A DNA stretch of 64,000 bases from Spiroplasma endosymbiont of Diplazon laetatorius (GTDB taxonomy: Bacteria; Bacillota_I; Bacilli_A; Mycoplasmatales; Mycoplasmataceae), in assembly GCF_964019625.1 (NCBI RefSeq), contig NZ_OZ026458.1, positions 682,001 through 746,000 of the forward strand, given 5' to 3'. Below, piece by piece: positions 11,890 through 64,000 of the stretch. How positions within the stretch are numbered: position 1 is the stretch's first letter; every line of letters begins with the position of its first letter. The position numbers were made by a program, and so were the translations under genes. The notes under the pieces were generated by a model that worked only from the letters and a program-made list of their open reading frames with translations, was not told the origin of the DNA and did no database searches.

Positions 11890-12027
11890 ACTCTTAAGCC
11901 TCCTTGATAATTCATTTAAGATATTAAGCAAATTAATAATACCAAAAAAATATAAAGAATTGTCTATTTTTTTAAGATAAATAATAAATATTTTCATTTT
12001 CTTATTCAGAAAGTTAATTTTATAGTA

Positions 12028-12059
12028 TTATCTATATAGATAGTTATCTATATAGATAA
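12028..12059 (+). promoter_or_regulatory. Two identical 12-bp palindromes, probable operator of the cysteine-rich peptide gene
   Basis: ATCTATATAGAT occurs at 12030-12041 and again at 12046-12057, 16 bp centre to centre. The second copy extends to a perfect 16-bp palindrome, TTATCTATATAGATAA. They lie just downstream of or over a TATAGT/TATTAT -10 candidate (12021-12031) and upstream of the ribosome site, where a repressor would block transcription. The ArsR protein encoded next door is the obvious candidate binder, but its own promoter carries a different inverted repeat. Confidence 0.7.
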
Positions 12060-12079
12060 TTGTCTTAAGGAGGACAATC

Positions 12080-12166
12080 ATGTTAAATATTTCATCAGTT
12101 TGTGAAAACAAATCTTGTACTTGTGAGAACTGTACATGCGAAGTATGTACTTGTGAAAGTTGCTAG
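12080..12166 (+). CDS. 28-residue cysteine-rich, metallothionein-like peptide
   Basis: Eight of 28 residues are cysteine (8, 13, 15, 18, 20, 23, 25, 28). The second half is a near-perfect repeat CTCENC-TCEVC-TCESC, giving CxC and CxxC spacing as in metallothioneins. No histidine or aromatic residue occurs. AAGGAGG ends six bases before the ATG, the best ribosome site in the neighbourhood. Twin palindromes lie upstream, a hairpin terminator lies just after the stop, and an ArsR gene converges on it. Together these mark a real, regulated gene. Binding of a thiophilic metal (zinc, copper, cadmium or arsenic) is inferred. I recognise no named family. Confidence 0.8.
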   Translation: MLNISSVCENKSCTCENCTCEVCTCESC

Positions 12167-12171
12167 CAATT

Positions 12172-12204
12172 AAAAAATAGAGCTTGTATTAGGCTCTATT
12201 TTTA
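12172..12204. terminator. Bidirectional terminator between the cysteine-rich peptide gene and arsR-type gene
   Basis: Arms AAAATAGAGC and GCTCTATTTT with a nine-base loop, and A/T tracts on both sides, placed between two convergent genes. It can end transcription on both strands. Confidence 0.8.
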
Positions 12205-12519
12205 TTTATTACAATTTGAACAATTCATTAATTTTTTTTGAACAGTTAATTCTGATACAAAACCCTTTAACTCATCTATTGTTTCATTATTAAGTTTGTA
12301 GATCTTTGAGTTCTTATCTTTTATAGAATTTACAAGCCCTACTTTTTCTAACATTTTCATGTGATAACTAAGTGTTGGTTGAGTTATGCTTAAATTGTCT
12401 AAAATATTTTGTGCACATTTATTACATCCACAATCACAAATCATATTAAGTATTTGTAATCTTGTAGGATCACCAAGTACTTTAAATATTTCTGCAAATT
12501 TATTATAGTTTTCTGTCAT
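12202..12519 (-). CDS. ArsR/SmtB-family metal-responsive repressor
   Basis: A 105-residue winged-helix regulator: FKVLGDPTRLQIL at the start and recognition helix SITQPTLSYHMKMLEKVGLV. Just before the recognition region lies a cysteine cluster, Cys28, 30, 32 and 35 (CDCGCNKC), in the place of the ELCVCDL sensor helix of ArsR/CadC; a second pair, Cys100 and Cys103, ends the protein. This suggests sensing of a thiol-binding metal(loid). It converges on the cysteine-rich peptide gene. An inverted repeat lies over its presumed transcription start, suggesting autoregulation. The metal is not predictable. Confidence 0.9.
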   Translation of the reverse strand: MTENYNKFAEIFKVLGDPTRLQILNMICDCGCNKCAQNILDNLSITQPTLSYHMKMLEKVGLVNSIKDKNSKIYKLNNETIDELKGFVSELTVQKKLMNCSNCNK

Positions 12520-12533
12520 AAGTAACCCCTTTT

Positions 12534-12565
12534 AGAACCACTTTTAGTAGTTCTTTTAAATTATA
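12534..12565 (-). promoter_or_regulatory. arsR-type promoter with inverted repeat over the start site
   Basis: On the minus strand an extended -10 (TGTTATAAT; TATAAT at 12560-12565) is followed by a 9-3-9 inverted repeat at 12534-12554 (arms AGAACCACT and AGTAGTTCT, one mismatch). It covers the expected +1 and ends just before the ribosome site, the usual position of an ArsR-family operator. Confidence 0.6.
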
Positions 12566-12668
12566 ACAATTTTAAATAAATTATTTTGTATTTGAACTTT
12601 TTACTTAAAATACAAAAAATACTTGTAAAAATGTGTAAAATAATAATAGTAAATTAGGAGTGATTAGA

Positions 12669-13517
12669 GTGAGAAAATTACTTAGTGTAATTTCAGTCAC
12701 AGCATTAGTTGGAACATCAAGTTTATCAGTTGTATCTTGTAGTTCAAACAAATACTTTAAAGAATTTAAAGGATGAATAGATAATAAAGAATCATTTATT
12801 TTATATATGGGAGCAGATGATTGTGAATATTGTCAAGGCTTTGAATATTTACAAGAAAAAGAAAGCTCATATTTTAAAACAAAAACTAAAGAATTAAATA
12901 CAAATTACAATCAAGAAATCAAAGGTTTGAATGGAAATTATTCAGATTCTATGACTGCATTTGGTGAAAAACTAAATAATGATTTAGAATTCAGAACAAT
13001 GAAAACAGAAGAAAAAGCAAACAAATTTGATGAAAAATGAAGTAAAAATATTCTTTCTTGACTTGTTGATGAAGTAACTGAAGTTTATAAATATAGAGAA
13101 TACAATAATTCACAACTTAGTGATAAATTAGTTACAAAATTAGCAAAAGCTAAAGTTGAAACTTATTTAAAGAAAGATAACTTAGGTATTCCTTTCTTTT
13201 TAGTAATAAGAAATGGTAAAGTTGCTGGTTGATATTCTGGTTTCTCAAAAGAACCTGAAGCTGGGTGAAATGAGCTTGTAATCGATGAATTATTTAAACA
13301 ACTTAATTCAATAATAACTAATCATGATCAAGAAACAGAAATGGTTAATTTAGTAAATAATGGTCAATCAACTGGTGGAGAATCTGGAAGCGGAGAAGGA
13401 TCTGGTACAGGTGGTCAATCTGGTGGTGAAGAAGGATCTAATCCTGAATCTGGAGAAACATTCAGTTATGTTATGAATAAAAATTCTTTACTAATTGATT
13501 ATTTAATGAATAAATAA
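12669..13517 (+). CDS. Lipoprotein with thioredoxin-like domain
   Basis: 282 residues. A signal peptide ends in the lipobox LSVVSC (Cys24). After it, ILYMGADDCEYCQGF places a CxxC pair (Cys52, Cys55) after a beta strand, and IPFFLVIRNGKVAGWYSGF supplies the cis-proline strand (Ile174-Pro175) of a thioredoxin fold. A helical insertion of about 100 residues separates the two. The tail (about 237-262) is Gly/Ser/Glu-rich. Start GTG at 12669 with TAGGAG upstream. A surface thiol oxidoreductase or thiol-dependent binding protein is the inference. UGA is read as Trp at several sites. Confidence 0.85.
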
Positions 13518-13607: not shown

Positions 13608-13696
13608 TGGTCCCCAGGGCCGGAATTGAACCGGCACGACCGATAAAAGTCGCTGGATTTTAAGTCCAGTGCGTCTACCTATTCCGCCACCTGGGG
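13608..13696 (-). tRNA. tRNA-Leu (anticodon TAA)
   Basis: 89 nt including encoded CCA. Acceptor CCCCAGG pairs with CCTGGGG; anticodon loop CTTAAAA; long variable arm typical of leucine tRNA. Last of five tandem tRNAs. Confidence 0.95.
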
Positions 13697-13710
13697 GTTA
13701 ATAAAAAAAA

Positions 13711-13786
<76 letters not shown>

Positions 13787-13795
13787 GAAAATAAA

Positions 13796-13870
13796 TGGCT
13801 GGGCTAGCAGGATTCGAACCGGCGCATGAGGGAGTCAAAGTCCCTTGCCTTACCGCTTGGCTATAGCCCA
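13796..13870 (-). tRNA. tRNA-Gln (anticodon TTG)
   Basis: 75 nt with CCA. Acceptor TGGGCTA pairs with TAGCCCA; anticodon arm GGGAC-TTTGAC-TCCC region gives TTG; T-loop GGTTCGAATCC. Confidence 0.95.
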
Positions 13871-13875
13871 ATAAC

Positions 13876-13959
13876 TGGTGGGGAGTGACGGATTCGAACC
13901 GCCGAACCGTTAGGAGATGGTTTACAGCCACCCGCGTTTAGCCACTTCGCTAACTCCCC
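13876..13959 (-). tRNA. tRNA-Tyr (anticodon GTA)
   Basis: 84 nt with CCA. Acceptor GGGGAGT pairs with ACTCCCC; anticodon loop CTGTAAA; long variable arm as expected for bacterial tyrosine tRNA. Confidence 0.95.
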
Positions 13960-13972
13960 TTTAATAAAATTG

Positions 13973-14049
13973 TGGTGCTGACTAAAGGACTCGAACCTTC
14001 GACCTATTGATTACTAGTCAATTGCTCTACCAACTGAGCTAAGTCAGCA
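13973..14049 (-). tRNA. tRNA-Thr (anticodon AGT)
   Basis: 77 nt with CCA. Acceptor TGCTGAC pairs with GTCAGCA; anticodon arm ATTGA-CTAGTAA-TCAAT, giving AGT. An unmodified or inosine A34 is uncommon outside Arg tRNA in bacteria but is known in mollicutes. First tRNA of the cluster. Confidence 0.93.
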
Positions 14050-54185: not shown

Positions 54186-56593
54186 TATCTCACCTCTATT
54201 TTTAGTTTAGATAAGTTACTTAATACTTTATCTCATTCATTTTGAACTTCTTGATCAGTTAGTTGGTTTTCAACACTGTTGAATTCAAATGAAACAGAAA
54301 CTGATTTAGAATTTGTTTCTTTTAGTTTCTCGTCTTGATAAATATCAATTAATTCTACTTTTGTTAAATGATTTACACCTTCAACAACAGTTTTAATTAC
54401 TTGTGAGTATTTATCTGTTGAGTTTAAAATAAATGATACATCTCTTGTTGTTTTTTGGAATTTAGAAATATCTTGAGCTCTAATCACTGAATTTTTAGTG
54501 TTTTGAACTTCAGTTATATTTAATTCTAAAACAAATGTTGAATCTAACTTTTGAGATTGTTCAAATTTAGGGTTTAATTTATAAATAAATCCTAATGTTT
54601 TTCCCTCGAAAGTAATTTTTGCATTAATAAATGGATGAATTTCATTTGGTGCTTTTTCATTTACATCGAATGAAACATCATTTAAATCAATATTGTATGT
54701 TTGTAATATTGAATCACAAATACCTTTTAAATAAGCATAACTTGATTTAATTGATATGTCATAACCTTTTTGATTCATAACATCTCCTGAAATTAATACA
54801 GATAAATGTCTTTGTCTTAAGTTATCCATGTTGTAGATATCTGCAAATTCATATAATTTAACATTTTTATTACCTTTTGAGTAGTTAAATGCTGCCGTTT
54901 CAATAATTGATCTTGATAAACTTAATCTAAAAGTTTCTCTCAATTTACTTAATGGACTCATTAAGTTTATTGGGTTATTAATATTGAATAAGTTTCAGTT
55001 ATCAACTGTTTCGCTTGAAAGTAATGAATAAGTTTTAATATTTGTAAATCCAAGACCTAATAAATAGTTTTCGTTTTGTTTTTGTAAACGTAAATCTAAT
55101 TTTTTAGATTTGTTATCTGAAAGAATTTTTGGCGGAATTGATTTAACATTGTCATAACCATAAATTCTTGTAACTTCTTCTACAATATCAGCACTATGTG
55201 CTATATCAGTTCTAAATTCATCAACTTTAAATAATAATTCATCACCATTTTCAACTATTTCAAAATCTAATGCTTTGAATAAGTTAATTATTTCTTTAGC
55301 TGTTAAATTTACTCCCATTAATTTATGGATGTAATCTAATTTAACACTAACTTGTGCTTGTTGTTCGCTTGATTCTTTAGCTATTTCAAGTTCACTGTTT
55401 GATTCATAAATATTATATTGATCCAATCAGTACATAACTCTATTTTGAGCTATTGTGTATAGTTTTGAACTTACAGGTTTCATATATCTTTGTAAGTCAA
55501 CTGTTGAAGTATTAAATTCTTTTTGTTGTTTTCTCATAAAGATTGGGTCTAATGAAAGATATACAACCAATATTTCTTTTGAATCAACTGTTGGTAAGAA
55601 TTCTTCATTTACTTCAACTCCAAGAGTAGAAATAACATTACCATCACTTGTCAATTGTAAATTAACACTGTGGTCAGCATTTTTATTGTTTTTAATTTCT
55701 AATTGAGATTTTAATTTACTTGGATCTAAGAACAATACTGGTTGTCCTGTTTCAATAGCTATAGCATTTGCTAAATCTAATCAGAAGTTGTGAGTTGTTT
55801 TAGCATCATTGAATTTTAATCAAACATCTTGATTTGAATAAATTTTGTATTCTTTTTCACCAATACTCATAACTTCTTTAATGCCAACCATTTGCATAGC
55901 TGCACTTCTAACAACTTTTTCAACTTCTTTATCAATTTTAATTGATACAGGTGAAGTTAAAGAATTTGTCTTAAAAGTATAGTTTTTTGTCATGTCATTT
56001 ATATCTTTATCAAAGTAATTAGCTAATTCCTTAGCTAATTGCATTGCTCCCAATGCATCACTTCTGTTTAAAGTTAAATCAACTTCTCAAACAGCATCTA
56101 AGAAACCAATTTCTTCTAAAGCTGTTTCGTTTCCTATCATTGAATAAGTATCTTCTTTTGTAACTATTGGATAAATTCAATCTTTTTCTTTATCTGATAA
56201 AGCTTTTGGATTTAATCCAAGTTCAGTTAATGCACAAAGCATTCCTTCTGACATTTTTCCTTTGATTTCTCTGTTTTCTAACTTTAATCCGTTAGATATT
56301 TTTTTACCTGCTTCTGCAAGAATTACATATTGTCCTTCTTGTACGTTGCTAGCTCCACAAACAATTGGAGAAACTAAGTCTTCACCTTTATCCACAAAAC
56401 AAAAACTTAAGTGAGTTCCTTCCATTGGAGTTACATTACCAACATGAGCAATTTTAAGTTTGTCATTTAAAGATGAATAATCTTTAAATGAGTCAACTTC
56501 AAAACCAAGTGAGTTTAATGCAACAGTAATTTGTTCATTTTTAACACCAGTTAAATCTATTAACTTTTCTAATCATTTTCTTGTTAAATACAT
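54185..56593 (-). CDS. pheT: Phenylalanyl-tRNA synthetase beta subunit
   Basis: 802 residues, full length. The N-terminal tRNA-binding OB fold (GNVTPMEGTHLSFCFV, SPIVCGASNVQEGQYV), VWEVDLTLNRSDALGAMQLA in the B3/B4 editing region, TRIYGYDNVKSIPP in B5, and the C-terminal FDX-ACB domain (FQKTTRDVSFIL) are all present. UGA codons read as Trp. It follows pheS. Confidence 0.96.
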
Positions 56594-56607
56594 ATTAATC
56601 TCACTTT

Positions 56608-57654
56608 CTAATCTCCAAAGAATTTAAATTGATCTAAGAATCTAATGTCGTTTTCATACATATCTCTTATGTTTTTTAGACCATATTTTAACATTGCAAG
56701 TCTTTCAATACCAACTCCAAATGCTAAACCAGTTACTTTTTCAGGATCTAAACCATTAGCTTCAATAACTTCTGGAGCTAACATACCTGATCCTAAAATT
56801 TCGATAAATCCAGTATATTTACATATTGGACAACCTTCTCCACTACAGTTTATACATCTAACATCAACTTCTGCTGAAGGTTCAGTAAATGGAAAGAAAC
56901 TAGGTCTCATTCTAATTACTGTGTCTTCTGAGAATAAACGTTTACACATATATTCTAAAACTCATTTTAAGTTAGCAAAACTAACTTTTTCTCCAATAGC
57001 AAATACGTCCATTTGCATAAATTGGTGTGAGTGAGTTGCATCATCATCATCACGTCTATAAACGTTACCATAACTTACAGCTGCCATATTAATATTTCCA
57101 GTTTTTGCAGCTTCTGTTAACATTCTTGCTGTCATGTTTGTTGCATGAGTTCTTAAAACTGTGTGCTCATCTATATATAATGTATCTTGCATATCTCTTG
57201 CAGGGTGTCCTATTGGCATATTAAGTTTTTGGAAACAATATTCATCTGTTTCAAACTCAGTTCCGTCAACCATTTCATAACCTAATTCAGTAAAAATAGA
57301 TGAAACTTCATCAATTACAAGGTTTAGAGGGTGTTTAGTACCCATTTTTAAGTTAACTCCAGATAATGTTAAATCTATTTTCTCTGCTTCTAATACTTTT
57401 TTTAATTCTTCGTTTTCAAATTTATCACTTAAAGCATTTAATTTACCAAAGATAACTTCTTTGATTTCATTAGCTTTTTGACCAGCTTCTTTTCTTTCTT
57501 CAGGAGAAGCTGTTTTTAAGTTTTTAAGAATTTCAGTTAATGGAGAATCTTTTCCAGCAAACTCTTTTTTTAACATTTCTAATTCTTCTTTTGTTTTGAT
57601 AGTTTCAAATCTTTTATTAAAACCATCCAATATATCATTTATTTTTTTTAACAT
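56608..57654 (-). CDS. pheS: Phenylalanyl-tRNA synthetase alpha subunit
   Basis: 348 residues, class II. Motif 2 lies in [11 protein letters not shown]...[20 protein letters not shown] and motif 3 in [14 protein letters not shown]; a Cys-rich segment [13 protein letters not shown] is typical of PheS. It heads the operon pheS-pheT-DUF177-rpmF. Confidence 0.97.
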
Positions 57655-57760
57655 AAATACACCTTTCCTAAATTTAAAGCAATTTAATTATACTAAATAA
57701 TTTTGATAAATAAGATATTTGATAATTCTTTTATCAAAAAATACCCATTTTTATTACTTT

Positions 57761-58267
57761 TTACAATGAATAACCATTATTGTCATTTAAATCCAAAGAT
57801 TTAGAAAAACTATTTAAATGTTTTTCTATTGATTCTTTGAAATTCATTAATTTTAACTTGAAATAGTCATCTGTATCAAATAATAGTCCTTTATATTCAA
57901 CAGAACAGTGAATTTTTTCATAAAATAAATACAAAATAAGTCCTTCATTGATTATTTCTTTTATTTCCATATAGATCATATGTATTAAATTATCCAAAAC
58001 ACCCAACTTATTTGTATTTACTTGAGTATTCTTAGCTACATCAACACATTTTTCAATAGATTCTCTTATACCGATAACCTTTTCTCTAACATCTTGTTCT
58101 TGATTGAAGTTGTATTGTGTTTTTAATTGATGTTGCATCATAGTTAAGAAAATATTTATATTTAATACATCAAAAAAATCTTCAAATTCCCATTTGAATT
58201 TAATTTCTTCTATTTCATGGTTAATTATTTTCTTCTTAAAACGCTTTGCTATTTGTTCTATTAACAT
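57761..58267 (-). CDS. Hypothetical protein
   Basis: 168 residues, largely helical, no membrane segment. An N-terminal basic stretch (AKRFKKKI) is followed by EEIKFKWEFEDFFDVL and a centre with MMQHQLKTQYNFNQEQD. Two cysteines. No family recognised. It stands alone between pheS and the rRNA terminator. Confidence 0.7.
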   Translation of the reverse strand: MLIEQIAKRFKKKIINHEIEEIKFKWEFEDFFDVLNINIFLTMMQHQLKTQYNFNQEQDVREKVIGIRESIEKCVDVAKNTQVNTNKLGVLDNLIHMIYMEIKEIINEGLILYLFYEKIHCSVEYKGLLFDTDDYFKLKLMNFKESIEKHLNSFSKSLDLNDNNGYSL

Positions 58268-58288
58268 AAATACCTCTTATTAATAATA

Positions 58289-58326
58289 TTGTATAAAAAA
58301 AACCTACTCATAAGAGTAGGTTTTTT
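58289..58326 (-). terminator. Terminator of the rRNA operon
   Basis: Stem AACCTACTC / GAGTAGGTT, loop ATAA, with T tract on the minus strand; about 10 bp after the 5S end. Confidence 0.88.
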
Positions 58327-58333
58327 AAACTTA

Positions 58334-58440
58334 AACTGGCAGCTTCCTATTTTTGCATTATACTATCGTCGGCGTTGCTGATCTTAACTTCTGTGTTCGA
58401 CATGGGGACAGGTGTGACCTCAGCGCTATGACCACCAGAT
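58334..58440 (-). rRNA. rrf: 5S ribosomal RNA
   Basis: About 107 nt. Typical segments on the minus strand: GTGGTCATAGCGCTGAGGTC, ACACCTGTCCCCATGTCGAA and CACAGAAGTTAAG. Ends estimated from the pairing of the terminal stem (TCTGGTGG / CTGCCAG region). Confidence 0.93.
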
Positions 58441-58551
58441 CTTAAGTTGTTTTTGTCTGAGAGACTAAGTTTTCATTTGAAAACTAAATCGTACTCTCAA
58501 AACTGAATACTAGATGATTTTATATATCTATACAAGCAATTTGTTTTGGTT

Positions 58552-61476
<2,925 letters not shown>

Positions 61477-61761
61477 TATTGCATATATAGATAATCTATA
61501 AAATTAATGAAATTTTAGTTTTCTTAGTATTAATCTAAATTAAGTTACTAAATACGTTTTATATTGTTTATAAACGTAAGAAAAATAAAATGTCTATTTT
61601 CATCTAATATTCAGTTTTCAAAGAACGATTTTCTTTACAGAAATTGTCCGGGCCCGAAGGCCCGTAAAAACAATCTCTGAAAACTAGATAGAACGAGATA
61701 TAATCATAAGCTGTTTTATCGTTTCACTCAGCTTTTTCTCTTAATCTACGAATACTCCATA
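61477..61761 (-). other. 16S-23S spacer without tRNA
   Basis: 285 bp. No tRNA is present. It holds 61679-61694, complementary to 63378-63393 upstream of 16S, and a segment near 61601-61613 complementary to 58500-58511 after 23S; these would form the precursor stems cut during rRNA maturation. Confidence 0.8.
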
Positions 61762-63282
<1,521 letters not shown>

Positions 63283-63377
63283 ATTTAATCAATGTGAAAA
63301 TTTTGATTCATGACTATATCTTGATTCTCAAATAATTGAACTTGTATAAATTGTACAAATTAATTGGTTGTTGTTGT

Positions 63378-63393
63378 TCTATCTAGTTTTCAA
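63378..63393 (-). repeat. 16S precursor processing stem, upstream arm
   Basis: GTTCTATCTAGTTTTC is the exact reverse complement of 61679-61694 downstream of 16S. The two would pair in the transcript and bring the ends of 16S together. Confidence 0.75.
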
Positions 63394-63434
63394 AGATCGT
63401 TTACGTTAGTTTTTCACAACCAACGACATATAAA

Positions 63435-63463
63435 AATATATATGATTTAAAACCAATAAGCAA
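63435..63463 (-). promoter_or_regulatory. rRNA operon promoter
   Basis: Minus-strand TTGCTT (63458-63463), 17-bp spacer, TATATT (63435-63440), about 155 bp before the 16S start. The 63464-63633 stretch upstream is very AT-rich, as in UP-elements; no gene is seen in it. Confidence 0.6.
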
Positions 63464-63633
63464 TACTTTTTTAATTTTTTTTTAAAATTTTTTATACTAT
63501 TTCGACATTTTTTTAAACATTAATCTATTTCTGAAAAAAAACGCTAATTTGGAATAAAACCCTTTAAAAATGGGTATTTCTCATTGACAAGAAAGATAAT
63601 AACATATTAAAAACTAAAAAACATAAAAAAAAT

Positions 63634-63656
63634 AAAAAAGTTTAAACTTTTTTATT
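63634..63656 (-). terminator. Hairpin after the truncated gene
   Basis: AAAAAAGTTTAAACTTTTTT is a perfect 20-bp palindrome immediately after the stop codon at 63657, followed on the minus strand by a T-rich tail. Confidence 0.6.
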
Positions 63657-64000
63657 TTAATCATCTCAATCGATTGTTGGTGTGAAATCTTCATCATTTT
63701 GGTCATTTACTGGGTCCAAAATCTTGTCTATATCTATTTCCATGGTTTGAGTTTTCTCTTTTTGTAAGCTATTTACTATATTTGATTTACTTACTAAATG
63801 ATCTGTTTTAGGAGCTTTAGGAGCTAATCTTCTTTCTTGTTTTTTCATAGCTTCTCAGATTCTGTCTGAATCTCCTAAGAATACTTTTCCTTGGTAGTTT
63901 TCATCTACTCTAGGAGTTTTTCTTTCAACTCTTTCAACATATAAAGGTTTAACAACATTACCAATTGGCTTGTCAAAATCACCTGCTCTTTGAGCCGATC
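63657..64000 (-). CDS. Hypothetical protein, N-terminal part off window
   Basis: The last ~114 residues of a longer protein. It is rich in charged residues: RVERKTPRVDENYQGKVFLG, RIWEAMKKQERRLAPKAPK, and an acidic tail DPVNDQNDEDFTPTIDWDD with a UGA Trp. Probably disordered at the end. Not recognised. Confidence 0.6.

Follow-up and report, generated by a model that had tools for sequence, protein, structure and literature searches.

The cysteine-rich peptide gene and its control region

The locus described here lies in a window of 64,000 nucleotides, the whole stretch of DNA analysed, within a single-contig genome of 979,438 bases from a Spiroplasma-like mollicute in which TGA is read as Trp in genes. 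An open reading frame on the plus strand (12080-12166, stop included) runs from an ATG through 28 codons to give the peptide MLNISSVCENKSCTCENCTCEVCTCESC, in which eight of the 28 residues are Cys and none is His, and whose cysteines fall into three CTCExC units (CTCExCTCExCTCESC). The Shine-Dalgarno sequence AAGGAGG (12067-12073, plus strand) sits 6 nt 5' of the ATG, and its GGAGG recurs in all ten loci compared below. Between this gene and a convergent ArsR-family gene on the minus strand (12202-12519) lies an intrinsic terminator, a stem-loop at 12173-12203 with a folding energy of -14.3 kcal/mol (one observed against 0.1 expected), which was scored on the plus strand and looks bidirectional by eye. 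A 28-codon gene with eight cysteines in CTCE-x-C repeats, an excellent ribosome site, a terminator of its own and convergence on an ArsR-type repressor with a cysteine cluster had all been claimed in the original prediction, and on each of these points the sequence agrees with it.

Apart from this one, no ORF of 15-60 aa in the 64-kb window reaches eight Cys together with a Cys content of 25%, and none at all arose when 60 sequences of 64 kb were simulated from the same first-order (dinucleotide) statistics. The 28-aa peptide (P0001) found no match at E up to 10 among Pfam and NCBIfam models, curated metallothionein profiles included, and none in a profile search against the PDB, searches that have little power because the query is short and compositionally biased; an Rfam search likewise returned no match. 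A short, Cys-rich ORF with a terminator directly 3' could also be read as a leader peptide, in which ribosome stalling before the terminator would report cysteine supply and so control a downstream gene. The next gene here, however, is the convergent arsR, with no co-directional gene 3', and in other families the peptide gene stands alone in intergenic DNA, with three tandem CxC-rich copies in one genome (G292, L202:3744-4230). We rejected the leader-peptide reading for want of that downstream co-directional gene, and consider it extremely unlikely.

The region 5' of the gene holds two exact copies of TATCTATATAGATA, the only two in the window (12029-12042 and 12045-12058); at up to two mismatches there are three window matches against 0.95 expected. 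These had been taken for two operator-like palindromes. Both copies exist, but jointly they form a single 32-bp palindrome (12028-12059), which is better read as one operator of the 12-2-12 type, TTATCTATATAGATA-GT-TATCTATATAGATAA, over the -10 box. Its 20-bp core (12034-12053) is the single window site at up to three mismatches (0.18 expected). According to the AzuR paper (PMC8790569), the sites bound by SmtB/ArsR repressors are 12-2-12 repeats, one or two of them, close to the start site, and an inverted repeat of that type lies at the controlled promoter here, as a predicted binding site. The operator overlaps a predicted -10 box, TATTAT (12026-12031, plus strand), found at the same position in 10 of 10 loci; a consensus promoter scan listed nothing at 12026-12031, because the box has no good -35 ahead of it. 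Directly 5' of the ribosome site, a 28-nt inverted repeat (12038-12065, plus strand) forms a possible 5' mRNA-leader hairpin, near which the transcript start would fall. It folds in all ten loci, with one two-sided change (L028) and partial breaks in four (L030, L031, L033 and L034), and it may be nothing other than part of the DNA operator.

The convergent repressor and its predicted target

The convergent gene encodes a protein of 105 aa that scores over the cut-offs for Pfam HTH_5 (48 bits; cut-off 22) and NCBIfam NF033788 (69 bits; cut-off 55). Its AlphaFold model (pLDDT 83) has the winged-helix ArsR fold, with Foldseek matches to 6j05, 6j0e, CzrA, SmtB and CadC; among its nearest structural neighbours are ArsRs that respond to As(III) (6j05, 6j0e) and CadC (1u2w, 3f72). 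The cysteines of its CDCGCNKC cluster (Cys28, Cys30, Cys32 and Cys35) are placed by the model at, or within, the loop that separates predicted helices 18-28 and 36-43, Cys35 being invariant among 13 homologues, while those of a further CSNC motif (Cys100 and Cys103) lie at the low-confidence C-terminus of the model. The α5 zinc site of the SmtB/CzrA subgroup, DxH...HxxE, is absent from helix 78-94. This absence leaves the sensed ligand uncertain and, taken with the placement of the cysteines, predicts a soft-metal or metalloid sensor. ArsR and the CadC of S. aureus pI258, both Cys-site repressors, carry cysteines ahead of the recognition helix, to which those of the present protein may correspond; here the cluster is expanded to CDCGCNKC and joined by the C-terminal CSNC, and the predicted target is a peptide rather than a pump.

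That prediction of the target comes from a search for the operator core ATATAGATANNTATCTATAT, at up to one mismatch, in 60 genomes of the family. The core is present in 13 of the 60, and 12 of those 13 also have the ArsR, the exception (G046) having one match and no ArsR. Each of the ten genus members that carry the repressor has a single copy, just 5' of the peptide gene; with one operator per genome at this stringency, the peptide gene therefore looks like the only operator target in its genome. Two genomes of another group (g12; G057 and G059) carry the core 5' of their own related arsR, at that gene's own promoter. In the window genome the operator is absent from the arsR promoter, so that autoregulation of ArsR is not evident. 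We note an imperfect inverted repeat, AGAACCACTTTTAGTAGTTCT, at 12534-12554, 5' of the arsR start, which is not at that place in the relatives compared.

Conservation, genomic setting and metal export

The original prediction had named in advance an outcome that would refute it, a reading frame not conserved among relatives in which the locus persists. It was not refuted: all ten genus members with this ArsR keep the operator, the ribosome site and an adjoining (CxCxx)n peptide frame of 21-28 aa with 6-8 Cys in CxC and CxxC spacing (for example MLRVSLGCTCEVCTCTDCKCGK, MNKISSACNCEVCTCSNCTCSNC and MIYITDGCTCQNCTCENCDCK). The register and spacing of the cysteines are constant while the residues between them drift, and the cysteine codons, 57 TGT and 10 TGC, indicate that the codon varies while the Cys is kept. 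Nine of the ten loci occupy the same place, flanked on one side by rpmG, which encodes a Cys4 L33, and on the other by a lipoprotein gene, beyond which lies pepP; in the tenth (G033) the peptide-ArsR pair is kept without L33, lipoprotein or pepP alongside. The lipoprotein gene (12660-13517), syntenic beside arsR in those nine, encodes a thioredoxin-like CEYC motif, and its product is only 51-57% identical in relatives in which L33 is 96-98% identical.

The constant company of a Cys4 L33 gene in nine loci, and the possibility that the peptide buffers an essential metal, could suit a housekeeping role, in which the conserved peptide stores or donates a metal such as zinc and ArsR answers ordinary metal status and not toxicity. 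Against this stand G033, where the pair persists without those neighbours, and the logic of ArsR-type control, which implies induction by excess; we regard such a role as very unlikely.

CDF exporters over the cut-off were found in none of the 60 family genomes, with 14 of 14 controls positive, and P1B ATPases over the cut-off in 20 of the 60. Among genus members, P1B ATPases occur in 0 of 10 that bear the module versus 7 of 10 that are free of it (Fisher p = 0.003), and across the family in 1 of 20 peptide-bearing genomes versus 19 of 40 others (p = 0.001), p-values that overstate independence because the compared genomes are phylogenetically correlated; the module-bearing species may form one clade. 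In one family genome (G004) a P-type ATPase that is over the P1B cut-off and has a His-rich N-terminus is followed directly by a related arsR, an arrangement that ties the ArsR lineage to metal. The further claim that the regulator, operator and product make up a minimal metal-sequestration module gains support, as a prediction, from the single-target operator and the lack of CDF and P1B exporters in the module genomes.

These observations also weigh upon a reading in terms of thiol redox or reactive sulfur, according to which the ArsR would act as a SqrR/BigR-like dithiol sensor, and the peptide would supply expendable thiols to buffer oxidants or persulfides and would not be a metal ligand. 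The several cysteines of the ArsR, the syntenic CEYC lipoprotein (thioredoxin-like, in nine of ten loci) and a weak NCBIfam BigR score of 29.9 bits all lean toward it. That score, however, is far under the cut-off of 155, the (CxCxx)n register fits metal-thiolate ligands and not isolated CxxC redox pairs, a P1B ATPase adjoins the related arsR of G004, and the absence of pumps follows the module. A redox role is possible for Cys-rich peptides, and to that extent it counts against a metal circuit; for this module we consider it unlikely.

A metal-responsive circuit, its relatives and its precedents

We propose, as quite likely on the genomic evidence, that the locus is a minimal metallothionein-like peptide circuit in which binding of a thiophilic metal to a thiol-site ArsR lifts repression. 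In the resting state, an ArsR dimer would occupy the 32-bp operator, covering the -10 box and the start site, and keep the peptide gene silent. An entering thiophilic ion (Cd, Zn, Cu(I), Pb or As(III)) would be bound by the Cys cluster of ArsR, at CDCGCNKC in the loop of helices 2 and 3 and perhaps with the C-terminal CSNC. The metal-loaded repressor would then leave the DNA, a short monocistronic mRNA would be made and translated into the peptide of 21-28 aa, and the (CxCxx)n cysteines would enclose the ion in a metal-thiolate cluster. Sequestration probably replaces efflux in these cells, because they have no CDF or P1B pumps over cut-off. Gene, repressor family, operator-like palindrome, conservation, single predicted target and pump-family absence are computed; from them we infer repression, inducer, metal binding, protection and production of the peptide. 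The family membership and fold of ArsR, its pairing with the peptide in all ten genus members that carry it and the triplication in G292 count for the metal circuit; a family genome (G030) that has a peptide of this kind as well as a P1B ATPase, but in which no ArsR was detected, counts against it.

Peptides of this kind are also present elsewhere in the family (G030, G050 and G059). In G059 the operator lies at the promoter of the related arsR, with a Cys-rich peptide directly 3', and in Williamsoniiplasma lucivorax (G057) a ribosome site and the 8-codon ORF MCPDCGCC (L035:4965-4990) come directly 3' of arsR, with a terminator-like repeat after them. All seven Mesoplasma-like genomes (g7), one of 793,224 bases, have a version of 36-37 aa and no ArsR; its Pfam match is sub-threshold only (PF12749, E = 0.44). 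In the six of these genomes where the peptide was located, it has a divergent neighbour gene of about 106 aa whose Cys tail is conserved, and the intergenic DNA holds repeats of the form TATATACATA. The product of this neighbour (L090, L091, L093-L096) contains NIYLNDET...NRSKIYK and the Cys tail; it has no Pfam match, and its structure model (pLDDT 59) is not interpretable.

Stand-alone versions occur outside the family in eight genomes of the same order (G098, G159, G162, G163, G189, G210, G290 and G292) and elsewhere in the class in one (G487). The CxCxxCxCxxC pattern at the DNA level is noisy by itself, appearing in 37 of the 60 family genomes, many times out of frame, and for that reason only short intergenic ORFs were counted. 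Class-wide matches to it were rejected in part, as tails of ferredoxin- and DUF1292-like proteins and frame artefacts; such CxCxx-rich C-terminal tails, in proteins named by eye, are seen in other Bacilli at L240:1399-1746, L226:1228-1560 and L227:1225-1578. With sequences so short and repetitive, the peptides found in different families may be either homologous or convergent.

Over 320 genomes of the order, an ArsR profile gave a single match outside the family, weak and containing stops (G223). A contig scan with a single ArsR query gave no confirmed relative, and one with an ArsR alignment gave W. lucivorax and mostly ArsRs of Clostridia and Bacilli, whose neighbourhoods (up to 4 kb each side) held no convincing Cys-rich small ORF with a ribosome site; the Cys-rich ORF filter picked up ferredoxin-like ORFs there. 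A plasmid search returned only ArsRs of under 60% identity.

More tentatively, and with some doubt on our part, we would extend the proposal to the mollicutes at large: (CxCxx)n peptides of some 20-41 residues would be their main defence against thiophilic metals, by sequestration only, with the regulator swapped between lineages, an ArsR in Spiroplasma-like species and Williamsoniiplasma versus a divergent, Cys-tailed and possibly DNA-binding protein in the Mesoplasma-like ones.

The circuit logic is that of cyanobacterial SmtA/SmtB and BmtA/BxmR. In these systems and in NmtA/AzuR, too, an ArsR/SmtB repressor governs a small Cys-rich protein by way of 12-2-12 inverted repeats, one or two in number, close to the start site (PMC8790569). 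In contrast to them, the peptide here has 21-28 aa and no His, is too small for a GATA-type zinc-finger fold and finds no match among Pfam and NCBIfam models, and its ArsR lacks the α5 site and is encoded convergently. Bacterial metallothioneins have a GATA-type fold (PMC10612145), and the zinc-finger fold with its His is absent from our 28-aa peptide. MymT of Mycobacterium tuberculosis was likewise a small, at first unannotated Cys-rich ORF, which proved to be a metal-binding protein (PMC7558416); the present peptides differ from that 4.9-kDa copper metallothionein in their regular CxCxx repeat, lineage and regulator. They have Cys-X-Cys repeats and Cys richness in common with eukaryotic metallothioneins and yeast Cup1, and are far shorter. 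Those proteins are CxC-rich, with Cys-X-Cys repeats and a very high Cys content.

The original prediction knew of none described for mollicutes, and in keeping with this no title or abstract listed by searches of an open-access library describes a metallothionein for mollicutes or Spiroplasma. In the literature covered, the peptide family, its size and its lineage have no precedent, and the peptide belongs to a set, apparently undescribed, of tiny metallothionein-like peptides from wall-less bacteria that mostly have none of the usual metal-export pumps. If the proposal holds, these peptides would rank with the smallest regulated metallothioneins known, would explain how toxic metals are handled in genomes without CDF or P1B pumps, and would offer, as one repressor, one operator and one tiny peptide, a compact metal-sensor part. 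Annotation easily passes over genes of 21-28 codons, and the known set of metal-handling genes in near-minimal cells such as Mesoplasma may therefore have gaps.

Elsewhere in the window, five tRNA genes (Leu, Lys, Gln, Tyr and Thr) are clustered on the minus strand at 13608-14048, and GC content is 0.36-0.44 at 56001-64000 against about 0.27 in the remainder.
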